Positions 6,794-39,222 of a stretch of 39,463 bases of DNA are shown in pieces. The DNA is from a virus. The stretch is taken from positions 1 through 39,463 of IMG/VR virus record IMGVR_UViG_3300030329_004118; one strand, 5' to 3'. Below the pieces are notes generated by a model that was given only the letters and a program-made list of their open reading frames with translations, searched no databases and had not been told where the DNA came from. Positions within the stretch are counted from its first letter, which is position 1. Every line of letters begins with the position of its first letter. A program made the translations under genes and the position numbers.

Positions 6794-7582
6794 ATGCGAT
6801 TGAGCGATTACGGTGTGATAAAAAGAGTAGTAGTAACGCCCGACAAGCATTTCCCTTTACACGATGCCCCTGCAATCAGAGTTTTATGTAAGACTATTGA
6901 AATAGTAAAACCTGATGCTTATGTTGATTTAGGAGACATCGGGGAATGGGAAGGTTTTTCTGCTTGGAAATATAAAAGAAGAAAAGCTCCGCCTTTAGAA
7001 TTTTTAATAAAAGATTTCGATAAAGATATAAAAGATGTAAATAAGGGAATGGATATCATAGACGAGTCCCTTGATAAAGCCAACTGTAAGGAAAAGTTCA
7101 TCACAGAGGGCAATCACGATAATTGGCTCAATATGGCGGTTGAAAAATATCCTTATATCCCTGATTATAAGTTTGCCAATGCAGTTAAGTTGAAAGATAG
7201 AGGGTATACCTACTATCCATTTGGAAAGCATCTCAAAATAGGGAAGCTTTATTTTTATCACGGTCATCAATATGGTGGTCAATATCATACTGCAAACCAT
7301 CTAAGAAAATTGGGATGCAATATAATGTATGGGCATTGGCACGATTTACAACAAATGTCTGCTACTCATATGGACGGAGCAAAGTCTGCTTGGTCTATAG
7401 GGTGTTTAAAGAATATGAAAGAAGAAGCTAATGAATGGCTAGGAAACAGAAGAATTAATTGGGCTCACGCTTTCGCTATAGTGGATTTTTTTGAAAAAGG
7501 TTTATTTACAGTACATATTATACAGATAATTAATGGAAAAACCTGTCTTTGGGGAGAGGTTATAAACGGAAATGCTAAATGA
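6794..7582 (+). CDS. Metallophosphoesterase (calcineurin-like)
   Basis: A 262-residue enzyme with the full two-metal motif set: D17-x-H19 (PDKHF), GD at 47-48 (DLGDIGE), GNHD at 106-109, H156/H158 in YHGHQYGG and GHWHD at 180-184. Such enzymes hydrolyse phosphomonoesters or diesters (nucleotides, RNA or cyclic nucleotides); the substrate cannot be told. It sits in the lysis region and its stop overlaps the next membrane-protein gene in ATGA, so it is expressed late. Phage copies of this family are common, sometimes near tail genes. Confidence 0.85.
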   Translation: MRLSDYGVIKRVVVTPDKHFPLHDAPAIRVLCKTIEIVKPDAYVDLGDIGEWEGFSAWKYKRRKAPPLEFLIKDFDKDIKDVNKGMDIIDESLDKANCKEKFITEGNHDNWLNMAVEKYPYIPDYKFANAVKLKDRGYTYYPFGKHLKIGKLYFYHGHQYGGQYHTANHLRKLGCNIMYGHWHDLQQMSATHMDGAKSAWSIGCLKNMKEEANEWLGNRRINWAHAFAIVDFFEKGLFTVHIIQIINGKTCLWGEVINGNAK

Positions 7583-7887
7583 ATTGGATAGAAATATTAG
7601 AACAATATGGTGTTCCATTAGTGGTGGCTGTTGCTTTTTGGCTTTTCATACAAAAGCAGAATAAATATATACAAGACGAACTTTCTAAAGAAATGCGAGA
7701 AAGCTTCGGAAGAGTTGAGGGTATTATTATAAAATTAATAGACCAACAAAAAAGAATGCAACTCGAACAAAAAGGTTTAGAAAACAGTTATAAAACTTTA
7801 GTAGAAGTTATTGCTAGTTTAAGCGGTAATGGACTAAAAGATAAGTTTTTGAGAATGCAAGAACGAAATGAAAATAAAAAATACTAA
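7579..7887 (+). CDS. Membrane protein with coiled coil, BhlA-holin-like
   Basis: A 102-residue protein with one N-terminal membrane segment (about residues 11-24, GVPLVVAVAFWLFI) and a long charged helix (KQNKYIQDELSKEMRES...). This order, short hydrophobic start then coiled coil, resembles the BhlA/bacteriocin-type holins. Together with 6579-6749 it gives two holin or holin/antiholin candidates. Coupled to the phosphoesterase by ATGA. A structural or spanin-like role is an alternative, but there is no lipobox or signal cleavage site. Confidence 0.55.
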   Translation: MNWIEILEQYGVPLVVAVAFWLFIQKQNKYIQDELSKEMRESFGRVEGIIIKLIDQQKRMQLEQKGLENSYKTLVEVIASLSGNGLKDKFLRMQERNENKKY

Positions 7888-7895
7888 GGAGTGAT

Positions 7896-8435
7896 ATGGC
7901 AAATATAGCAAATCAATTTACAGGGCTACCTATAGAGAATCTTATAGCTGCTCCGTTATTAGCTGCGGCTGAAGGGCAGAAATCTTTAGCTCAAACTACG
8001 GCTGCATTTATAACAGACGTAGGAATGGATAAAGATGGTAATACTAAATCAGTTTCTTTTACATATGAAGATGGTTCTGAGAGTGTAGCTTTAGATGTAC
8101 CTTTATTGTCAATTATAAATATACCAAGTCTATGTGTAGACGAAATAGATGTTAACTTCAATATGGAAGTATCAACTCAAACAGCTAGCAAGTCATCAAC
8201 AGATTCAAGTGCAACAGCAAGTGCTTCTGTAGGTTGGGGTTGTTGGAAAGCAAGTTTTGAGGGAAAAGTATCTCATCACTCTGAAAACAGTAGAAGTTCA
8301 GACACTTCTGCTAAATATACTATAGCCGTAAAAGGAAAGCAGGAGAAACCTGAAGGATTAATGAAAGTATTGGATATGCTGAATAATTCTATAGGTAAAC
8401 AAAAAGGAGCTCCTGCAGATGGCGGAAAGAAATAA
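7896..8435 (+). CDS. DUF2589 family protein
   Basis: A 179-residue protein with the family hallmark start (LPIENLIAAPLLAAAEGQKSLA), a middle block LDVPLLSIINIPSLCVDEIDV followed by beta strands, and a Ser/Thr/Ala-rich linker (about residues 95-110). The family is of unknown function. Good ribosome site AAGGAGTGAT. It overlaps the next gene by 17 bases; that gene appears to be a distant relative, so the two may form a hetero-complex. Late position suggests a virion or cell-exit role, which is inference. Confidence 0.75.
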   Translation: MANIANQFTGLPIENLIAAPLLAAAEGQKSLAQTTAAFITDVGMDKDGNTKSVSFTYEDGSESVALDVPLLSIINIPSLCVDEIDVNFNMEVSTQTASKSSTDSSATASASVGWGCWKASFEGKVSHHSENSRSSDTSAKYTIAVKGKQEKPEGLMKVLDMLNNSIGKQKGAPADGGKK

Positions 8436-8880
8436 TTTAAAAAAGGGGTCGTTTTTAGACCATTTAACTAAAGGCTTATATGACGCTGTAGTTCAAGCCC
8501 AAAGCCTAGCAGAAAACCAACATATAGAAGCTTTAAAGAAGTATGTAAATAAAGATGGAAGCCCTAAGTGTATGGAAATGGTTATAAACGGACAAGATGT
8601 CAAAATTCCCCTAGCAACTCTAGCTCCGCAAAGCTCTATAAAAATAAAAGAGCTTACAATGGAGTTAAAAGTTAGGCTAAATAAATTTGGTAAAAGAAAG
8701 TCAAGGTTAGGTGGAGGTATTTTTTGCAAGGAAGATGCAGGTGCAATAGATGCAGATTTAGGAGCTTCCATAATTCCTATAAAGAATAACTACGCTAACT
8801 TGAAAATAACGTTTGAAGGAGCTGACCCGCCTGAAGGGTTAGTTCGATTAAATAACAATCTAATTAAGCAAATACCATAA
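8419..8880 (+). CDS. DUF2589-like partner protein
   Basis: A 153-residue protein overlapping the DUF2589 gene. It shares the same order of elements: a helical start, IPLATLAPQSSIKIKELTMELKV (compare VPLLSIINIPSLCVDEI in the neighbour) and a C-terminal PPEGLVRLNNNLI (compare KPEGLMKVLDMLN). This suggests an old tandem duplication with strong divergence. Function unknown; probably the partner of the upstream protein. Confidence 0.6.
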   Translation: MAERNNLKKGSFLDHLTKGLYDAVVQAQSLAENQHIEALKKYVNKDGSPKCMEMVINGQDVKIPLATLAPQSSIKIKELTMELKVRLNKFGKRKSRLGGGIFCKEDAGAIDADLGASIIPIKNNYANLKITFEGADPPEGLVRLNNNLIKQIP

Positions 8881-9029
8881 TGGAAGAGAAAAGAATAGAG
8901 CAATTACAAAAAACCGTCAATAAGTATGGACAATACATTGAGCAAATGGAAAAAGATATTGCTATTTTAAAAAAAGACTCTCATCCGCCCTTGGAACGAT
9001 GCAATTGCTGTAAAAAATTAGATAAATAA
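8880..9029 (+). CDS. Small coiled-coil protein with CxCC motif, 49 aa
   Basis: ATG shares its A with the stop of the preceding gene (TAATG). The product is a short amphipathic helix (RIEQLQKTVNKYGQYIEQMEKDIAIL) followed by PPLERCNCCKK, a cysteine cluster that could bind zinc or cross-link. No family known. Coupling supports its reality. Confidence 0.6.
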   Translation: MEEKRIEQLQKTVNKYGQYIEQMEKDIAILKKDSHPPLERCNCCKKLDK

Positions 9030-9054
9030 TAGAATTTTAAAAGGAGAAATAATT

Positions 9055-9207
9055 ATGACTGAATGGATGACAACAAATTGGGAATGGGTATTATTAGCGT
9101 TTTACGTTTTAGAAAAAGTAGTAAAATTAAGCCCAAGTAAAAAAGATGATATTATATTCGATAGTATTTTAAAACCTATCTTTACTATGTTCTCAGGCAA
9201 AAAATAA
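9055..9207 (+). CDS. Small membrane-associated protein, 50 aa
   Basis: Excellent ribosome site (AAAAGGAGAAAT) before ATG 9055; stop overlaps the next start. A tryptophan-rich hydrophobic N-terminus (WEWVLLAFYVLEKVV) is followed by KLSPSKKDD and an amphipathic end. Similar short proteins with a hydrophobic start and a (T/S)PxxKDD motif occur in many phage late regions as holin-like or structural accessories; this is recalled family style, not a search result. Confidence 0.55.
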   Translation: MTEWMTTNWEWVLLAFYVLEKVVKLSPSKKDDIIFDSILKPIFTMFSGKK

Positions 9208-10550
9208 TGCCTAGAAGCAGGCTACCAAGAATCCAATCCTTAACAGATGGTTCTTTCGAGCCATCTAAAAGGAATGGTGTTTCCCTTAGGGATGATGAAA
9301 GCCTGTCTGACGACTTTAAGCAAATAAGGATTGGGGAAACTAATTCTGTTCTAAGCTTATCAAAAAATTCTATCAAAATAGATGGAGATTTAAATTTAAC
9401 AGGCTATCTTAGCAATGGAAAGATTGAAACAGATGATACTTATTTAGATTTTATCTCAGCTAATGGATATTTTAGGTTTCATACTCCTACTACTACTGCG
9501 GGGCAAGAACCCTTACTAACTATTTCAGGGGGAAGTGTTCTTTGGTCTTCTGTTGGGGATTATAACATTGCCTCTGAGGCAGATATAGATATGAGGGCAG
9601 AGGGAGATGATTTCCATTTTCGTGGGAGCAATGATAATGCTGTTGATTTCTTTTTTCATTTTGACGCTAGCAATTATTCTTCATTGACTGTTGCAGCTAA
9701 TGGGGCAACTACATTAGCAACTATTGATGCGGATGGAACTGTGGGGCACTTAACTTTAGATGTTGATGGCGATATAGAGTTGAATGCTGATGGTGGCGAT
9801 ATATATTTTAAAGATGCAGGCACAATCGGTGCTGCAATAGAAATGGGAGTTGCTAATACTCTGTATGTATACAATCCTTTAGATTCAGGAGATTTTTTTA
9901 AGATTTCAACTATAGCAAATGGAGCAACTACAATATCTACTCTTGATGATAGTGCCACAGCAGCTCATTTAACTTTAGACATTGATGGCTCTCTAATAAC
10001 TGACCCTGCTGATGGCAAATATATAGCTAAAAATAATGGAACAGAATTTAGTGCAACAGATAGTGCTTATGCAGGGATGATACTTGGTTATACTTGTTTG
10101 AGAAACCTAGATACTACATCAGGAAAAGAATTAATTACAATAGGAACAAGTATGACTGTATTACAAACTGACCAAGGAAATGACGTAAAGGTTACTTTTG
10201 TTGCTCCGCCAAGTGGCAAAGTTGAAATAGTATTTGCAGCTTTAGTAGATGCTTCTTCTAAAACAATAAGATTTGCTTTATCTGATAATGCTACATTTAA
10301 TGAATTGGCGGCAATACAAACTTATGATAATAAATGCGTAACTATAGATGAATCGGACGAATATGTTAATAATATTCGTTGGTGCGTTGAAGGTTTGACA
10401 GAGGGGAGCTCTTATACGTTCTTTGTTGCAGCGAAATCAAGTAGTGCAAGCTCTTATATTTATCAAGGCATAAATAGATTTAATACACATAGTCCGCCAA
10501 TAATAGTTAAAGCAATAGCATTGCCTGCGACAATTTATAGTGGAGAATAA
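9207..10550 (+). CDS. Tail-fibre-like protein with repeated beta units
   Basis: A 447-residue protein with repeats typical of fibre shafts: GDLNLTGYLSNG, then two longer units of the form ATT-L-T-D-HLTLD(V/I)DG (about residues 170-195 and 245-265). The C-terminal part (after residue 300) looks like a separate beta domain and could be the tip that contacts the host. Located before, not after, the tail tube genes. Adhesin or fibre role is likely; chaperone-type cleavage motifs were not seen. Confidence 0.6.
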   Translation: MPRSRLPRIQSLTDGSFEPSKRNGVSLRDDESLSDDFKQIRIGETNSVLSLSKNSIKIDGDLNLTGYLSNGKIETDDTYLDFISANGYFRFHTPTTTAGQEPLLTISGGSVLWSSVGDYNIASEADIDMRAEGDDFHFRGSNDNAVDFFFHFDASNYSSLTVAANGATTLATIDADGTVGHLTLDVDGDIELNADGGDIYFKDAGTIGAAIEMGVANTLYVYNPLDSGDFFKISTIANGATTISTLDDSATAAHLTLDIDGSLITDPADGKYIAKNNGTEFSATDSAYAGMILGYTCLRNLDTTSGKELITIGTSMTVLQTDQGNDVKVTFVAPPSGKVEIVFAALVDASSKTIRFALSDNATFNELAAIQTYDNKCVTIDESDEYVNNIRWCVEGLTEGSSYTFFVAAKSSSASSYIYQGINRFNTHSPPIIVKAIALPATIYSGE

Positions 10551-27446: not shown

Positions 27447-28121
27447 TTATTTGTTTGAATTATAAAATGCTTTAGCGAAACCACTTGATGTAATAGACCT
27501 ACTTTTTGCTCTCTCGTTTTTAGATTTATTAAAATCTTCGTAGTAATTCTTTGACATTCTTTTTTTAGCCATCTCGTCTCCAAATAAAGATAGATTATTT
27601 GACTCAAATTCTTCTGTGCTAATCATCTCCACCATATCGGGCTTTACTATTTTTGTGGGGGGAGGCATATTAAAATCTCCCCACAGACAAGTCCTCTTGC
27701 TATAATTATCCCCATATTGATAGGGTTGAAATGTGTGTTTAGGTTTACCAAGATACCTGCTCATTCTTCCCAAAGGGTTTTCCATCGCCCAAAAGACAGG
27801 CTTTGTTATTAATATAATTCTTAAACAAGCATCTACTACCGATAACCCTTCCAACAGAGGTTCTTTCCCTTTATCTTTCCACCACCTTGCTCCGCTAGAA
27901 CTAAAATGAGTACAAGGAGGAGCAGATAATATTCCATATATTTTTTCTTTAGGTTTTTTAAACAACCTTACATCGCCTGTCCCATAATCATCTTCTATCC
28001 ATTCTTGAGAATCTACAACTCTAACATTATATCCATTATCTTTATATGGCTTGCTCCAAGCCCCTGTTCCACCGCACAAATCTAATATAACTTTACTACT
28101 ATTTATTTCAAAGAGTTCCAC
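27447..28121 (-). CDS. C5-cytosine DNA methyltransferase-like protein
   Basis: Catalytic motifs in order: VILDLCGGTGAW (SAM-binding motif I), SAPPCTHFS (motif IV with the catalytic Cys), MENPLGRM (motif VI, ENP instead of ENV) and KRTCLWG (motif VIII-like). It probably methylates phage DNA to evade host restriction. The frame is open up to a GTG at 28217, but the GTG at 28121 has AAGGA at good spacing and starts just before motif I, giving 224 residues; I chose it. The target-recognition region is short. It lies between two 17-bp direct repeats, so it is likely a recent gain. Confidence 0.75.
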   Translation of the reverse strand: MELFEINSSKVILDLCGGTGAWSKPYKDNGYNVRVVDSQEWIEDDYGTGDVRLFKKPKEKIYGILSAPPCTHFSSSGARWWKDKGKEPLLEGLSVVDACLRIILITKPVFWAMENPLGRMSRYLGKPKHTFQPYQYGDNYSKRTCLWGDFNMPPPTKIVKPDMVEMISTEEFESNNLSLFGDEMAKKRMSKNYYEDFNKSKNERAKSRSITSSGFAKAFYNSNK

Positions 28122-28137
28122 TACTTCTTCCTTGTAT

Positions 28138-28154
28138 GTGTCATTTATTCTCCT
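28138..28154. repeat. 17-bp direct repeat, copy 2 (upstream of methyltransferase)
   Basis: Identical to 27429-27445. Here the same ATGACACA begins a dead frame (MTHTRKK then stop), a likely remnant of the nuclease start (MTHPSKQK) left when the methyltransferase gene came in. Confidence 0.85.
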
Positions 28155-28347
28155 CAATCCATTTCTTATATCTTCTGTTACTCCTAAAATTTGAGCCAAA
28201 CATCTCTCTAACGGCACATTTCTTACAAATTATGCCTAATTTTTCATCAGTTATCAAGGAAGTCCATTCATACATAGGGGCATTATATTTATACTCCCCA
28301 CAACAAATACACTTACTCGTCGTCTTCCCAATATTTTTTATATTCAT
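28141..28347 (-). CDS. Small zinc-finger-like protein, 68 aa
   Basis: Two CxxC pairs (CICCGEYKYNAP... and IICKKCAVREMF) suggest one zinc site formed by four cysteines, followed by a basic helix (RSNRRYKKWIEENK). It overlaps the upstream gene by 35 bases and ends at the 17-bp repeat. Possibly DNA or RNA binding. No known family named. Confidence 0.65.
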   Translation of the reverse strand: MNIKNIGKTTSKCICCGEYKYNAPMYEWTSLITDEKLGIICKKCAVREMFGSNFRSNRRYKKWIEENK

Positions 28348-33543: not shown

Positions 33544-33906
33544 TTACCCTTTCCAATTTATAACCTCTGCGGTGGTTTCATAAAACCTGCCGAAAGGTGT
33601 TATTATTATGTATATCCAAGCTTTTACGATTTCTCCGTGCAAATCAAACTCTCTTATTTCTCTTTGATATAAACTGCCGTTACTTTCCAACATATCTGTA
33701 AAATAAAAGTCGTGTTCAGTTAAATCGTAAATCTCTCCCTTGAGATGCTTCCCATCGGGATTAAATTCTGCACAAGGAAATCCGCAATCGTATATATTAA
33801 ATCTATCAATAGATGTAGCCACACCTAAAAAATCTGTATGCACTAGCAATCTATTATTGCCTAATCCTCTTTTTAATGTTCCGTAAACAAACAACTTGCT
33901 TTCCAC
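33544..33906 (-). CDS. Gamma-glutamylcyclotransferase-like (GGCT/AIG2) protein
   Basis: A 120-residue protein with the hallmark FVYGTLKRGLGNN (YGTL at residues 8-11, the substrate-binding loop), ...GFPCAEFNPDGKHLKGEIYDL and LESNGSLYQRE (candidate catalytic E73). GGCT-fold enzymes release 5-oxoproline from gamma-glutamyl amines. GTG start with AGGAG eight bases upstream. In other genomes GGCT proteins are associated with amidoligases and class II amidotransferases in peptide-tag or metabolite pathways; both occur 1.6-4.3 kb away here. Confidence 0.8.
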   Translation of the reverse strand: MESKLFVYGTLKRGLGNNRLLVHTDFLGVATSIDRFNIYDCGFPCAEFNPDGKHLKGEIYDLTEHDFYFTDMLESNGSLYQREIREFDLHGEIVKAWIYIIITPFGRFYETTAEVINWKG

Positions 33907-33917
33907 TTTTATTTCTC

Positions 33918-34079
33918 CTATTCTTCTATTTTTTCTATATCTTCAATATAAAGATTATCCATTTCAATATCATCTTTAATATAGCCCTGTGCATTTGACT
34001 TCATATCTTCAACAGATTGATTTGGTAAATCATTTATACATATAACTACTCTATAACTACATCTTTTTTCTTTTTTCAT
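33918..34079 (-). CDS. Small acidic protein, 53 aa
   Basis: ATG follows GAAAGGGAAATAAAAA. The product MKKEKRCSYRVVICINDLPNQS begins basic and becomes strongly acidic (DNLYIEDIEKIEE). No family recognised. Just upstream of the GGCT-like gene in the same transcript. Confidence 0.55.
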   Translation of the reverse strand: MKKEKRCSYRVVICINDLPNQSVEDMKSNAQGYIKDDIEMDNLYIEDIEKIEE

Positions 34080-34082
34080 TTT

Positions 34083-34175
34083 TTATTTCCCTTTCTTTAT
34101 TAATATAATTCTTATAAATGTATAGAGTAATATTATATACATTATAACTATACACCCTTTTATAAAACCTTCCAT
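34083..34175 (-). CDS. Tiny membrane peptide, 30 aa
   Basis: GAGG then ATG 34175 gives MEGFIKGCIVIMYIILLYTFIR followed by KKGK: one membrane helix with a basic end. Three bases separate it from the next gene. Short, but ribosome site, tight spacing and topology support translation. Confidence 0.5.
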   Translation of the reverse strand: MEGFIKGCIVIMYIILLYTFIRIILIKKGK

Positions 34176-34195
34176 TTATACCTCAATTAATTTAT

Positions 34196-34389
34196 AAGTG
34201 TTTTTTCTTTAAGGTCTTAAAACACTTAAAAAAGACCGCACATTATGTTTATTAAGGAAAACACCTCGCAACGAGGAAAAACCTCAATTATAAGGGCAAG
34301 TATCAAACAAGGTTAGAGAGAGGGTGAATATAACAAACACCCTTTTATAACCCCCGTCGGCTCTCACGAATTCCGCTCTCTACTTGCCC
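34196..34389 (-). ncRNA. Structured intergenic region, RNA candidate B
   Basis: The 230 bases between 34176 and 34405 have no gene but much structure: GGGCAAGTA (34294-34302) with TACTTGCCC (34381-34389), 9 bp; TAGAGAG (34314-34320) with CTCTCTA (34376-34382); AGGGTG (34321-34326) with CACCCT (34338-34343); CCTCG-CAA-CGAGG (34264-34276). A further hairpin AAGTGTTTT/AAAACACTT (34196-34227) has its loop GGTCTT paired to AAGACC (34232-34237), a pseudoknot or switch. The strand is uncertain; minus is given because neighbours are minus. Shares TTTTATAACCCCC and AAGTATCAAAC in inverse with RNA 32794-33060. Confidence 0.5.
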
Positions 34390-34405
34390 TATTTATTAGG
34401 TTGTT

Positions 34406-34558
34406 TTAGAGTCCCGTTATTTCTTTATCGTGCATTTTAAGAACTTCAGTCTTTACCTTATTCCCCACATTGATTTCTTTATCTGTACATATTAGTTTTA
34501 GCAATATGGTTTCCAATTGGTCTTTATCTAACTCTTCCAACCTTTTTTGATAACTCAT
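34406..34558 (-). CDS. Small protein, 50 aa
   Basis: ATG at 34558 has AAAGGGAATAAA upstream; a longer frame to 34597 is less likely. Product MSYQKRLEELDKDQLETILLKLIC then NVGNKVKTEVLKMHDKEI is helical. First gene of the minus early block after the AT-rich origin-like region. No known family. Confidence 0.6.
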   Translation of the reverse strand: MSYQKRLEELDKDQLETILLKLICTDKEINVGNKVKTEVLKMHDKEITGL

Positions 34559-34844
34559 TTTATTCCCTTTCGTTTTTGTTGTCCAACTTCGGCTCATTTC
34601 CGCCTTACCCTCAATTTATAAAATAAAATTAATATAATGCAAGCTTTTTGTCATTTTTTTTTGCAACTTTTTTTGATACCCTTCGACAGAAATATAAAAA
34701 TATTTTTTTAAAAGGGTATTTTCCTATTTATAAAATTATAAAATATAAAAATTTTACCCCCACCCCTAATTATAACGCTAGGAAAAAAAATATCTCTTTT
34801 TTGACCCACTTTTTCGGCAAAAATCGTAAAAACCTGTAAAAAAG

Positions 34845-34853
34845 TTATCCACA
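34845..34853 (+). promoter_or_regulatory. DnaA box TTATCCACA (1)
   Basis: Perfect match to the bacterial DnaA R1 consensus; preceded by CCTGTAAAA (34833-34841), the same unit as in the tandem array 170 bases downstream. Confidence 0.7.
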
Positions 34854-34928
34854 ATTTTTTGGATACCAAAATCCGAAAATCCCAAAAATCGCATAAAATT
34901 ATTTTTTTTTGCGGTGGGGGGGGGTAGG

Positions 34929-34937
34929 TTATCCACA
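34929..34937 (+). promoter_or_regulatory. DnaA box TTATCCACA (2)
   Basis: Second perfect box, same strand, 84 bases after the first, right after the G9 run. Confidence 0.7.
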
Positions 34938-35021
34938 TTTTAAAACTATGTCAAAAAGCAATTTAAAGTAATACTTTAAATGATGCCTGCAATTAATTTT
35001 GCAAATCTTAAAAATTTATTT

Positions 35022-35084
35022 CCTGTAAAATCTGTAAAATCTGTAAAATCTGTAAAATCTGTAAAGCCTGAAAAACCTGTAAAA
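35022..35084 (+). repeat. Tandem 9-bp iteron-like array
   Basis: Seven end-to-end units of (T/C)CTGTAAAA: CCTGTAAAA, TCTGTAAAA three times, TCTGTAAAG, CCTGAAAAA, CCTGTAAAA. Position beside DnaA boxes suggests initiator-binding iterons. No spacers, so not CRISPR. Confidence 0.8.
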
Positions 35085-35350
35085 AATTTTGCCCGTCTTT
35101 GATTTTTTACGATTTTGCTATCCCCTACCCTACCCTTCTCGTCGTAAAAATGATATTTTTAGCTATTTTTTAAAATCGCTTAAATTTACGATTTTTATTT
35201 TTTTGCTCTCTCTAATACTCTGAACAGAAAAAAACGTCTAAAAATGTCAATATTTTTCGCCATATGCTAAACCCTACACTCTACCAAATCCTTAAAATGC
35301 CTTAAATTCTTTAAATTTGCCTATTTAACGGCTATTAAACTAAAAAGTAA

Positions 35351-35368
35351 TGTCAATATATCTTGACA
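35351..35368. promoter_or_regulatory. Operator-like dyad TGTCAA-N6-TTGACA
   Basis: Perfect 6-bp inverted arms around TATATC. TTGACA half-sites also lie upstream of the Cro-like gene, so this may be a binding site of that regulator. Confidence 0.45.
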
Positions 35369-35437
35369 AGTAAAAAAGTGTCTAAAATCGCCTATTTTGG
35401 CGATATTTTAAAAATTGCCTTCTGTCCCCCGTCGACA

Positions 35438-35467
35438 AAACAAGAAACCCGCTCGAAGCGGGTTTCT
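35438..35467 (-). terminator. Terminator after the amidotransferase gene
   Basis: Perfect 11-bp hairpin (AGAAACCCGCT and AGCGGGTTTCT, 3-nt loop) at 35443-35467, followed on the minus strand by TGTTTTGT. It ends the amidoligase-amidotransferase transcript. The plus side is also T-rich, so it may work both ways. Confidence 0.85.
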
Positions 35468-35496
35468 CATTTTCTCGTCTTATTTTGAGTATTTTT

Positions 35497-36312
35497 CTAG
35501 TCGAATTTGAATTCGCTCTGTTCATTGAAATACGTTTCGCAAGTATCGCAATATTTCTCATCATTGACGGAAATTAAGCTATCGTTTAACATTCCGCACC
35601 CGTCGCATTTAATGAATTTATTCTCGGCATAAACTCTCTTTTTTGTGTCGACAATCTTGTCCATAATAGGACGATTTTTTTTGCTCTTTTTATTGGTTTT
35701 TATCGTCGTATTGTCCCAATTGTAAGCCTTCCAATTATTGCGATGATATACAATAGGCTCGGGCTTTTTGTAATTGTCGTTGCTATACCAAATCGTTTTT
35801 AATTTGTTCCAATGTCCGCCGTATTTATGCTCATTAATAATTTCGAACGACCCGTCAGAATTTAAGAAAGCTAATTTGCTCGACCCTATGAAATCAGAAA
35901 CAAGAGTTTTTATTGATTCCGACTCTGACCAATTAGTCGGCAAATCCTTCAAAATCGTATTATTGAAAACTCTAGTATCTGACAAAGTCGCATCGCTACC
36001 GACGGAATTTATACAGCCGTTATGTCCGAAAACTTGCCCGTCATTCACTCGGAACGGGTGACAATTATCAAGATTTGTTAACCCGTGAGTCGTATAACGG
36101 AAATGGATTAAAAATGCCGACGATGAGCCGAATTTTTTAACATCTTTATTTATTGATTTCACGAACGGGTCAAGCTTCATAAATTTACGAATTTGAATTT
36201 CGCCCTTATCAACGAAGGCATATCCTACGCCGTCGTTATTTCTTTTCCAAGTTTGCTTGAATTGCTCGTCTGTTACCTTGCTATTTTTCTTTTGTATAAT
36301 TAGTAAACACAT
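35497..36312 (-). CDS. Class II glutamine amidotransferase (GAT-II) with zinc ribbon
   Basis: A 271-residue Ntn-hydrolase. Cys2 is the expected nucleophile once Met is removed (MCLLII). Conserved parts: NNDGVGYAF (25-33), HFRYTTHG (70-77, substrate Arg72), NCHPF (83-87) and FGHNGCI (95-101, oxyanion Asn98). It should release ammonia from glutamine and pass it to a partner. After residue 230 there is an extra zinc ribbon (C236, C239, C255, C258). The partner is most likely the adjacent amidoligase, 35 bases upstream in the same transcript. More CG dinucleotides than the structural genes. Confidence 0.88.
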   Translation of the reverse strand: MCLLIIQKKNSKVTDEQFKQTWKRNNDGVGYAFVDKGEIQIRKFMKLDPFVKSINKDVKKFGSSSAFLIHFRYTTHGLTNLDNCHPFRVNDGQVFGHNGCINSVGSDATLSDTRVFNNTILKDLPTNWSESESIKTLVSDFIGSSKLAFLNSDGSFEIINEHKYGGHWNKLKTIWYSNDNYKKPEPIVYHRNNWKAYNWDNTTIKTNKKSKKNRPIMDKIVDTKKRVYAENKFIKCDGCGMLNDSLISVNDEKYCDTCETYFNEQSEFKFD

Positions 36313-36347
36313 TTTTTTTACTCTCTTTCTCGTCTTAATTGACGTTT

Positions 36348-38204
36348 TTAGTTATTGTTATTTATTATTATTTCTGATACTTCGCCCTTTACATCTTCAC
36401 GGCATAAAAACTCGAATAAATTCGGATAGCTTTTTTGATTTTTAGCGATATAGCTACAATATTTACTTAAATCGTTAAAATTAACATTTCCGCTCTGTTG
36501 AGTGAAGTAAAAAAGCGACTCGACAAAATCAAGATTTTTTCTAAATCCTTGCTCGTCTAAATTGCTCTTAAAAATTCTAACTTCAATCGTTGCCGAATTC
36601 ATTAAATTAACCGCTTTGTATCTGTCTGAAAATGGTCTTACTGGTCTTTTATCTTTTCTCTTATATTTGCTTACAATTTCCGATTTGCATCTGTCAACAT
36701 CGTTTGAACTATATTGACACCAATCGCCACCCGTTCCACGTCTTTGACCAATCACTTTTGAGAATTTAACATTCTTGTTAATGAATGATAAAAATCTAAA
36801 AAGATGAGTTTCGCCGTCGAATGCCGAGCGGTTTACGTGAATATGTATTCCGCAATTACTAGAGTAAAATCCTCTGTAATCTTTTCTGTGTCTCAATAGA
36901 ATTTGATTTAAATCTAATTTACGAAACACGTCAAACGTTGACGGGTGCGATATTACTTCAAATCCTCGAGAAACCGACCCGTCTCGACACGTCCAAAAAA
37001 GATTGCTTGACTCGTGAGCAATCGTCCAAGCGGTCGCCTTCTCGTCATATTGATTGATATGCTCTCTAGCTTCAATTTCGCACTCTATGCCGACAAGTAA
37101 TTCATTTTTTAAATTGCCGATTTCATTAAGCGATTTAATCTCATTATTTTTATTTACATAATGATATTGTAGCGACGGGTTAGAATGATAAGCCCGAATT
37201 GAATTTCTCGTAATTGATTTTTTATTGGACGAATAGCACAAATTACAGATTTCTGTATAGTTATTTCTAGTTACAGAAAGCAAATGCAAATGTTCTGTTT
37301 TATCTGTCATTTTTACGATTTTGTCATTTTCTGTTAATGCTCGACATTGCTTACACTCTGTCATATGATTATTTACATATTTTGCCGACATTATGCCGAT
37401 TGTCGCATCATATCTAATAACGTCTCTCTGACTATTTAATTTCGAGTATTTGCCTAGAAATTGGTAAAATTCGCCCGTTTTTTGACAAGGTCGAAATTGA
37501 CTACCTAGCGGAAGTTTATTTGTCAGATTTCCGCCTAAATCGTGGAATTTACTTTCTAACTCTCGATGATTGAAATTAATAGTCGTCAACCTTGTAAAAT
37601 CCGTTAATTGATTTCCTTCTGTTTTTAAATCATAATTTAGAGCTAAATCATTTAAGCAATTTGCTAGGTTTGAATGAAATTCATTTTCTCTGTAGTTATC
37701 GTTTGCTCGGTCGTATTTTACGAATTTAGAAACATCTTTTAAGGACTTACTATTTTTAAATGTATCGTACACAAATTCTCTATAATTTGACACGTCATAT
37801 CCTCGACCCTCCTCAGCATAAAACATCGCCATTTGAAAAGCTTCTGTCGTTGTTAACTCTTTTAGAAATCGCTCTAATTTCTCGGCATATCGTCTTTTTA
37901 GGCAATAATTGCCGTTATTATATTTCTCAAAAGCCCACGTTTTAAATTCAGGGTATTGAAATAGTCGAGCCTGTAATTCTATAGAGTCAGTCAAGAACGA
38001 CAGCATACTAATTCGTCTTAATACTCGTGTTTTGCCGTTCAAACCTATTCCGTTAATGAATAGAAATTCCGACATTCTTTGTCTTGACTCTTTAATTTCT
38101 GTCTGTGTATATCCTAGCAAATTATTTATTTTTGTATATTTGCGGATACTACAATTTCCGACGTTAAAATGAAAAGTTATGTTATTTTTTTTAATTGTTT
38201 TCAT
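36348..38204 (-). CDS. Amidoligase (GS-fold COOH-NH2 ligase) with N-terminal extension
   Basis: A 618-residue protein. The C-terminal catalytic part (about 368-570) has the Amidoligase_2-type signature: LVGIECEIEARE (370-381), RDGSVSRGFEVISHP (407-421), NCGIHIHVNRS (450-460) and YKAVNLMNSATIEVRIF (529-545), i.e. glutamine-synthetase-like metal/ATP residues. Such enzymes form amide or isopeptide bonds using ATP. C284xxC287 and C320xxC323 make a zinc-ribbon-like site before it, and residues 1-270 are an unrecognised helical domain. Ribosome site GAGAGGAAACACG. With the adjacent GAT-II it would form a glutamine-fed ligase; the acceptor is unknown. Confidence 0.82.
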   Translation of the reverse strand: MKTIKKNNITFHFNVGNCSIRKYTKINNLLGYTQTEIKESRQRMSEFLFINGIGLNGKTRVLRRISMLSFLTDSIELQARLFQYPEFKTWAFEKYNNGNYCLKRRYAEKLERFLKELTTTEAFQMAMFYAEEGRGYDVSNYREFVYDTFKNSKSLKDVSKFVKYDRANDNYRENEFHSNLANCLNDLALNYDLKTEGNQLTDFTRLTTINFNHRELESKFHDLGGNLTNKLPLGSQFRPCQKTGEFYQFLGKYSKLNSQRDVIRYDATIGIMSAKYVNNHMTECKQCRALTENDKIVKMTDKTEHLHLLSVTRNNYTEICNLCYSSNKKSITRNSIRAYHSNPSLQYHYVNKNNEIKSLNEIGNLKNELLVGIECEIEAREHINQYDEKATAWTIAHESSNLFWTCRDGSVSRGFEVISHPSTFDVFRKLDLNQILLRHRKDYRGFYSSNCGIHIHVNRSAFDGETHLFRFLSFINKNVKFSKVIGQRRGTGGDWCQYSSNDVDRCKSEIVSKYKRKDKRPVRPFSDRYKAVNLMNSATIEVRIFKSNLDEQGFRKNLDFVESLFYFTQQSGNVNFNDLSKYCSYIAKNQKSYPNLFEFLCREDVKGEVSEIIINNNN

Positions 38205-38234
38205 CGTGTTTCCTCTCTTATTTTGTTTTATTTT

Positions 38235-38260
38235 GTGGCGATATTTCTTGTCATCGCTAC
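38235..38260. promoter_or_regulatory. Hairpin in the amidoligase leader
   Basis: GTGGCGAT (38235-38242) pairs with ATCGCTAC (38253-38260), 8 bp with one G-T, about 30-55 bases before the amidoligase ATG (38204). It may regulate translation or stability of the message. Confidence 0.45.
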
Positions 38261-38521
38261 AATAATATATTAAGGATAATTCATATAAAAAAATCAGAGT
38301 TCTCGTCGGTGGTAGAGTGGTTTTCTCGTCGGTGTCAAGTTATCATTTTTAGCCTATAGACCCCTTAAAATAGCCTATTTTTCTCGTCGAGGGTCTCGTA
38401 CGCACAGGTACATATATATGCTTAAAAAAGCCTATTTTTTTATATTTAGCTTATTTCTCGTCGGTAATCAATTAAATTGTAACAATATGTAACAATCAGT
38501 ATTTTAGGCTTATTTTTGGCT

Positions 38522-38551
38522 CTTGTAAGTGCTATATATATATGATAGTTA
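38522..38551. repeat. 30-bp direct repeat, copy 1
   Basis: CTTGTAAGTGCTATATATAT then ATGATAGTTA; identical to 38677-38706 but for one base. Contains the dyad CTAT...ATAG. A shorter relative TGATAGTTACA is at 38648. Confidence 0.85.
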
Positions 38552-38676
38552 CAGGCTTTGCTCGTCTATAAATTATTTTGTATTTTGCTTAAAAATTGTT
38601 CTCGTCGAGGTCTCGTCGACAAAAATTTGTATGTGCCTTATTTTATTGATAGTTACAAGGATTTGCGTTTTCTGTG

Positions 38677-38706
38677 CTTGTAAGTACTATATATATATGA
38701 TAGTTA
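38677..38706. repeat. 30-bp direct repeat, copy 2
   Basis: Matches 38522-38551 (G to A at the tenth base), 155 bases apart, each followed closely by a CTCGTC motif. Confidence 0.85.
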
Positions 38707-39016
38707 TGATTGTTCTCGTCGATAAAATAGTTCTTGTTTAATTGTTTTAATTGATTAGGAGTTTTTTAATATTTTGAATTTGTTTGATTGTTTAAATCGT
38801 AAAATTACTAAAAAAAATTTTCGATGCTACGCATTATATCTGATTTGGTTTTTAATTATTTGATTATGATTTTAATTGCTTAATAGCATTTAAAAGATTG
38901 TATTAATTACGGCAAAAATCGTACCATACTCTAAAATTTTTTACTTTAGTTACGCAGTTTCAACATACCAAAAAAACGGCTATATATTTACGATTTAAGT
39001 CTGTATTTTGAAGGAC

Positions 39017-39025
39017 TTATCCACA
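39017..39025 (+). promoter_or_regulatory. DnaA box TTATCCACA (3)
   Basis: Third perfect DnaA box, about 200 bases before terS, in an AT-rich region with GTTGATAACTT direct repeats; a second origin-like site. Confidence 0.65.
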
Positions 39026-39188
39026 TAGTTGTTAACATTCGTAAAAAATGAGCCATTAACAGCGAATAATGTTGATAACTTGTTGATAACTTGACCCACT
39101 AAGGCGGATACGCAAAATCGGGATTTGGGGGGTAGCATTCCACATAAAATCTAAAAAGTAACTTCCAAAAGAGAAAAAATAGGAAACT

Positions 39189-39216
39189 TTGAAAATATCT
39201 TTGAATTTCTTATATT
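39189..39216 (+). promoter_or_regulatory. Promoter candidate of terS
   Basis: TTGAAA (39189-39194), 16-base spacer, TATATT (39211-39216). The expected start site is at or beside the ATG at 39223, with no ribosome site between, so the message may be leaderless. Confidence 0.45.
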
Positions 39217-39222
39217 AAGAAT

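Follow-up and report, generated by a model that had tools for sequence, protein, structure and literature searches.

A near-invariable gene pair encoding a putative glutamine-fed amidoligase in a tailed phage, with a GGCT gene nearby

The IMG/VR virus record IMGVR_UViG_3300030329_004118 was analysed over its whole length of 39,463 bp (the window), which carries terminase, capsid and tail genes of a tailed phage. Three minus-strand genes lie at its right end and encode an Amidoligase_2-type ligase, a class II glutamine amidotransferase (GAT-II) and a GGCT-like cyclotransferase (Table 1). An earlier note, made from the sequence alone, had proposed these genes; its coordinates and orientations were all correct, including a GGCT gene about 1.6 kb downstream of the other two in the same direction. 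The exact distance from GAT-II to GGCT is 1,590 bp, and the DNA between them is mostly non-coding and AT-rich. All three family assignments passed the curated Pfam cut-offs: the ligase scored 28.1 bits against Amidoligase_2 (PF12224; cut-off, 22) and 28.8 bits in a repeat genome profile search, GAT-II scored 25.5 bits against GATase_4 (cut-off, 23), and GGCT scored 63.2 bits against GGACT (PF06094; cut-off, 22.8). The ligase and GAT-II genes form a two-gene operon that is conserved almost without exception among viral and bacterial relatives.

Table 1. Positions of the three genes and the associated elements in the window
Feature	Position	Strand	Description
Amidoligase_2 (GS/GCS2-fold) ligase	36348..38204	-	618 amino acids; Pfam PF12224, PHROG, AlphaFold2 fold, invariant residues
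Ligase layout (residues)			1-280 unrecognised; two CxxC pairs at 284-323, degenerate zinc-finger region; ~335-608 catalytic domain
Class II (Ntn, N-terminal nucleophile) glutamine amidotransferase, GAT-II	35497..36312	-	271 amino acids; GATase_4, GlmS profile match, conserved pocket
Spacer between ligase and GAT-II	36313..36347	-	35 bp; Shine-Dalgarno-like AGAGAG and one GACGAGAA motif at 36327-36334
Intrinsic terminator directly past GAT-II	35443..35467	-	11-bp stem, bidirectional-looking; T-rich tail on the minus strand
GGCT/AIG2-like cyclotransferase	33544..33906	-	120 amino acids, GTG start; separate downstream transcription unit
Palindrome TTAAAGTATTACTTTAA	34963..34979	none	between GAT-II and GGCT
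Ligase leader, non-coding	38205..39222	-	about 1 kb; seven CGACGAGA motifs, all operon-oriented

The window GAT-II contains C2, R72, T75, H85-P86, N98-G99 and D112, which make up a complete class II glutaminase site; H76 was also listed among its active-site residues. In profile comparison its best match was the glutaminase domain of GlmS (1.2e-5), followed by 3mdn and PurF. The pocket is kept in nearly all of the 155 ligase/GAT-II pairs collected from viruses and bacteria (see below): R72 is present in 155/155, N98 in 154/155, G99 in 152/155 and D112 in most. The N-terminal cysteine follows the start methionine directly (MC) in 113 of the 155 proteins and lies at most 60 residues in, owing to start calls, in 40 more. 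Toward its C terminus the window GAT-II has zinc-ribbon-like CxxC pairs (residues 236-258), and at least two CxxC motifs were found in 69 of 80 family members. The extra zinc-ribbon cysteines of both proteins could thus be placed, at C236/C239 and C255/C258 in GAT-II and at C284/C287 and C320/C323 in the ligase. Divergence within the GAT-II alignments A2 and A4 was too great for a pattern scan.

The ligase also matched PHROG 16683 (9e-22). Its structure was modelled with AlphaFold2 (AF2) from 73 family sequences; a single-sequence model, with a mean predicted local distance difference test score (pLDDT) of 33, was discarded. Residues 335-608, modelled at a pLDDT of about 90, were aligned by VIA-align with YbdK (1r8g; Z 12.1, 225 residues, root mean square deviation 4.2) and with glutamine synthetases (GS) and plant glutamate-cysteine ligase (GCL) (Z 11.6-12.0), these matches covering 180-229 residues. 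The top Foldseek ranks were YbdK, PafA, Dop and GCL. The model thus supports a GS/GCS2 fold for the catalytic domain; since the fold alone is shared, the match does not identify the substrate. Eleven residues (E374, E376, D408, E416, H454, H456, R488, R528, N533, E541 and R543) are kept in 143-155 of the 155 ligases, and E374, E376, H454, H456, R488, E541 and R543 are invariant. These acids, histidines and arginines form a putative ATP/metal site. Every key residue that the earlier note had named is present in the window proteins, and both things on which it had staked the ligase assignment, a match to the GS/amidoligase fold and retention of the catalytic acids and histidines, were found.

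In relatives of the ligase, CxxC zinc fingers form an array ahead of the catalytic domain, with a profile similar to that of LIM domains (PINCH, 7d2t; 2.5e-5); the window ligase retains only two CxxC pairs in this region. The part before it, which had been described as an unrecognised N-terminal domain of about 270 residues, indeed remained so and spans about 280 residues. Residues 1-280 gave no Pfam match above the cut-off and no homologue among 4,588 open reading frames (ORFs) of related loci, and the region is private to the window protein. The AF2 model of this part was of low confidence (pLDDT mostly below 50) and unusable, so that no fold is claimed and the absence of a structural match is uninformative. 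The ligases of two related loci, L017 and L032, are 55% identical to each other in the catalytic part and 24% in the N-terminal part. Given this much faster divergence of the N terminus, it is plausible that this domain selects the substrate.

The ligase served as the only bait for collecting relatives. Of 240 IMG/VR and 147 bacterial relatives, the best 80 each were taken as loci; they represent one subfamily. A scan of viral contigs with a single protein (query P0001) had returned nothing, and an alignment query was required. In 79 of the 80 viral loci GAT-II adjoins the ligase on the same strand, with a median gap of 6.5 bp and the order ligase then GAT-II in 75 of the 79; the remaining contig ends 169 bp past the ligase. 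Among the bacterial loci, a same-strand GAT-II was adjacent or nearby in 75 of 80, and only two of these 75 have a distance above about 250 bp. Of the five loci without one, three are cut off at a contig edge and one is disrupted; in the fifth, L156, which has a high-GC open frame, no GAT-II was detected beside the ligase. Catalytic residues are kept in both partners across the 155 pairs. After clustering at 70% identity, 74 distinct pairs remained, and the identity matrices of ligase and GAT-II were correlated at r = 0.81 (maximum under permutation, 0.08), indicating that the pair is inherited as a unit. Conservation in about 155 loci excludes chance as the cause of the pairing. The recurrence that a gene-neighbour survey was expected to reveal was therefore seen for these two genes. 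When the neighbouring genes were clustered, none besides GAT-II was comparably constant, and the most frequent of the others are lineage-specific.

The product of 33544-33906 is a true GGCT: YGTL at residues 8-11 and E74 were aligned in 9 of 9 homologues, and by sequence the protein matches YtfP (1xhs) and GGACT (3jub). The recurrent three-gene neighbourhood proposed earlier was not borne out in the sampled subfamily, where a GGCT lies within 8 kb of the pair in 5 of 80 viral loci (about 6%) and 1 of 80 bacterial loci; GGCT is dispensable for most of its members. Since the strong predicted terminator and the gap of about 1.6 kb intervene, the window GGCT is probably not part of the ligase/GAT-II operon. 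It adjoins an ORF whose match to GIY-YIG is below threshold, and helix-turn-helix (HTH) and ParB-like genes lie downstream of it. L017 and L032 share the order of the window: the ligase and GAT-II come first, followed by a hairpin resembling a terminator, a non-coding stretch and then GGCT. The window GGCT is most similar to those of these two loci, at 36-37% identity. In the wider family, GAT-II and GGCT are fused in one chain in 15 viral proteins (L006, L007 from 7001 on, and L174-L186), for two of which Pfam matches were obtained. An amidoligase gene lies upstream of 13 of the 15, three of those being cut by contig ends, and the contigs of the remaining two stop before that point; in L006 the amidoligase was recognised by profile comparison only, at 78% probability. 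Once identical and near-identical contigs are merged, the 15 fusions represent about seven lineages. Because the fusions adjoin amidoligases, a functional link among the three families exists in some phages. The earlier suggestion of a three-gene linkage thus stands for the wider family and fails for a shared operon at this locus.

A WhiB gene is found downstream in 27 viral loci, and many of the viral relatives appear, judged by gene content, to be actinophages. The bacterial copies come mostly from gut Clostridia (Oscillospiraceae, Ruminococcus, Butyricicoccus), often with several per genome. Near the pairs of the 80 bacterial loci (L094-L173), Ccr-like large serine recombinases (40), integrases (29), DUF960 (22) and DUF1643 (17) were found. 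These neighbours place the bacterial pairs in integrated mobile elements, perhaps as cargo of cassettes like the staphylococcal cassette chromosome (SCC), and the module seems to serve mobile elements and not housekeeping. One pair (L095) lies on a 45-kb contig of the metagenome-assembled genome (MAG) Candidatus Lokiarchaeota LW30_13. This contig is perhaps from a phage and wrongly binned, or else from an archaeal virus; the latter would argue against a peptidoglycan target. The phage of L017 is of one lineage with that of the window: the terminase is 75% identical, GAT-II 45%, GGCT 36% and the catalytic part of the ligase 35%. In this lineage the module evolves faster than the structural genes. 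No PADLOC model matched the pair, in a library that covers defence and not counter-defence; an assignment as a defence system was rejected for lack of such matches, counter-defence being outside that library. Pairs beside recombinases were seen, for example, in L132, L109, L160 and L161.

On balance, the pair is probably a glutamine-dependent amide-forming enzyme with a component of the host envelope as its most likely substrate, a reading that we hold with moderate confidence. It is the most economical one because a GS-fold ligase and a GAT-II form a near-invariable operon with both active sites intact. The N-terminal cysteine of GAT-II would hydrolyse glutamine to glutamate and ammonia, as its sequence suggests. 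The ligase would use ATP to activate a carboxylate of the substrate; attack of the ammonia, which may be transferred directly, on the resulting acyl phosphate would give a primary amide. The substrate could be, for instance, a peptidoglycan stem peptide with the free carboxylate of meso-diaminopimelic acid (mDAP) or D-Glu, a target that even within this reading we regard as possible and not as expected. An altered envelope might enable the infected or lysogenised cell to resist competing phages or wall-degrading enzymes. The zinc-finger modules of both proteins and the fast-diverging N terminus of the ligase may serve the recognition of a partner or target, and GGCT would be a dispensable helper that processes gamma-glutamyl compounds arising from the same chemistry. 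Glutamine-dependent wall amidation is performed by AsnB in Listeria (PMC8554201) and by LtsA in Corynebacterium (PMC7920481). Wall amidation is also sensible as a phage trait, since asnH mutants of L. casei have altered peptidoglycan and are phage-resistant (PMC3885529).

Several points weigh against this reading. No activity is known for any family member, and co-inheritance by itself is no proof of physical contact or coupling. The GAT-II fold can instead hydrolyse gamma-glutamyl amides, as in EgtC. A single peptidoglycan target is weakened by the occurrence of the pair in phages or MAGs of hosts whose envelopes differ greatly, including the Lokiarchaeota contig. In Clostridioides phage AR1086-1 (L005), no GAT-II was detectable beside the amidoligase at 7569-9758. 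By eye, the gene next to that amidoligase resembles a nucleotidyltransferase.

The chief rival to the ammonia-feeding model is a pathway that makes and trims gamma-glutamyl compounds, which we consider unlikely but worth serious attention. Here the ligase would couple an amine to glutamate or a different acid, and GAT-II would be an EgtC-like amidohydrolase that edits or processes the product by taking off the glutamyl group and supplies no ammonia; GGCT, in the loci that have it, would likewise release this group by cyclising it to 5-oxoproline. EgtA, of the GCS type, and the GAT-II-like EgtC are an established pair of this kind. The carboxylate-amine ligase YbdK and GCL are among the closest folds of the ligase, a weak match to EgtC (TIGR03442) was obtained with one GAT relative from bacteria, and both domains of the 15 viral GAT-II-GGCT fusions act on gamma-glutamyl amides. 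The window GAT-II and its profile, however, score best with the true glutaminases GlmS and PurF, and trimming by GGCT is not essential because GGCT is absent near most pairs. At this locus GGCT is quite possibly, though less likely than not, an independent phage accessory that simply lies near the pair. The terminator and 1.6-kb gap, the neighbouring GIY-YIG-like ORF and HTH/ParB-like genes, and the scarcity of GGCT near the sampled pairs are consistent with independence; the layout and palindrome shared with L017 and L032, the fusions beside amidoligases and the published phage cassettes with all three families (PMC5498523) speak against it.

The target might also be a host or competitor protein and not the wall, the pair amidating or conjugating it in counter-defence or inter-element conflict, aimed by the zinc fingers and the variable N terminus. 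The presence of the pair in phages and recombinase-bearing elements, the LIM-like region in the family profile, the divergence of the module relative to terminase (about 35-45% versus 75% identity, with the N terminus faster still) and the protein-modifying GS-fold enzymes PafA and Dop among the fold matches all point this way. The zinc fingers, however, may merely join the two subunits, the target is not known, and no PADLOC model was matched, though these models hold defence families and not counter-defence. We rate this explanation as rather improbable. In a broader and speculative form, which we doubt, the pair would be the core of a widespread macromolecule amidation system borne by mobile elements, in which a GS-fold ligase supplied by glutamine is guided by zinc fingers and has an exchangeable recognition N terminus. 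This system would be common to unrelated phages and SCC-like integrative cassettes and would chemically mask or inactivate a target in the host or a competitor when mobile elements are in conflict. Modification of phage DNA bases by the pair is very improbable. Nucleic acid can be bound by zinc fingers, some pathways of DNA hypermodification include GAT-II enzymes and the window carries a DNA methyltransferase gene at 27447-28217, but no thymidylate-synthase-like, 7-deazaguanine or hydroxymethyl enzyme genes were recognised among the ORFs scanned, and we know of no Amidoligase_2 precedent in DNA base modification.

Annotation of phage amidoligases goes back to 2009, and a role in modifying the wall against superinfection has repeatedly been proposed for them. 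Iyer, in 2009, reportedly described a phage peptidoglycan-modification cassette and amidoligase families of this kind. In cluster S mycobacteriophage Marvin, gp105 and gp106 are likewise an Amidoligase_2 protein with N-terminal zinc fingers immediately followed by a GAT-II with C-terminal cysteine pairs; unlike the window pair, they lack the 280-residue N-terminal region, the ligase has 453 amino acids and a C-terminal extension, and identities are 22-26%. EgtA/EgtC of ergothioneine synthesis, YbdK and the GlmS/AsnB glutaminases represent the same pair of folds (GCS-type GS fold and GAT-II), but they are distant in sequence, and the characterised ones have known small-molecule or wall substrates. 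They are also without zinc fingers. The OM43 phages MEP401 and MEP402 (PMC10580990) have the same order of amidoligase and GATase, an early-gene position, a long N-terminal part and a GAT-II that is 37-39% identical; their N-terminal part has no significant similarity, and no GGCT was annotated or detected in the stretch examined. The cassette of PSA-HP1, RIO-1, phiEco32 and LUZ24-like phages, proposed to modify peptidoglycan (PMC5498523), likewise unites the amidoligase, GAT-II and GGCT families, but its amidoligase is of a different subfamily, and the additional ligases and the ATP-grasp enzyme that it contains were not recognised in the window. A tblastn search with the window ligase did not find the cassette-type amidoligase. 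No further amidoligase/COOH-NH2 ligase or ATP-grasp gene was found among the larger window ORFs; PF14395 gave no match, but neither did its control, and the record may be incomplete. The fusion phages (C75C1; MW202828; L174-L186) also have an upstream amidoligase, GAT-II and GGCT, but with the last two as one polypeptide and a more distant amidoligase.

The kind of system is thus already known (reportedly from Iyer in 2009, and from Marvin, MEP401/402 [PMC10580990] and the PSA-HP1 cassette [PMC5498523]); the strength of the pairing, the GAT-II-GGCT fusions, the LIM-like zinc fingers, the fast-diverging N terminus and the SCC-like cassette setting are new. In the literature searched, no product of a phage amidoligase was shown, and the wall role published for these enzymes is likewise a suggestion. 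The problem is now narrowed to a near-invariable two-gene unit with both active sites intact, which is directly testable, and the pair is present in cultured phages (Marvin, MEP401/402) and cultured bacteria. A wall target, if true, would explain a common class of phage accessory genes; a protein target would be a new conflict chemistry.

The DNA around the operon contains several repeated motifs. Eight copies of CGACGAGA were found in the window against 0.12 expected. Sites of the form CGACGAGA(A) lie on the minus strand, operon-oriented and non-coding, at 38300-38721, 36327-36334, 35472-35479 and 35136-35144, and L017 has one copy of this type in the corresponding downstream gap. Among the fetched loci, the palindrome TTAAAGTATTACTTTAA was found only in the same GAT-II/GGCT interval of L017 and L032; it is not specific per se, since viral contigs contain at least 120 stretches that match it, and is notable only for its repeated position in three related contigs. 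An Rfam search for an RNA element gave no match. The stretch 34845-35090, between GAT-II and GGCT, is a possible replication origin, suggested by four exact tandem CTGTAAAAT iterons at 35023-35058 with degenerate copies and by perfect DnaA-box matches TTATCCACA at 34845 and 34929; a third such box lies at 39017. In the structural gene region, a DUF2589 protein is encoded at 7896-8435 (113.7 bits). Two 39-nt direct repeats (38513-38551 and 38668-38706), 87% identical and with a TATATATATA core, lie in the upstream non-coding region.

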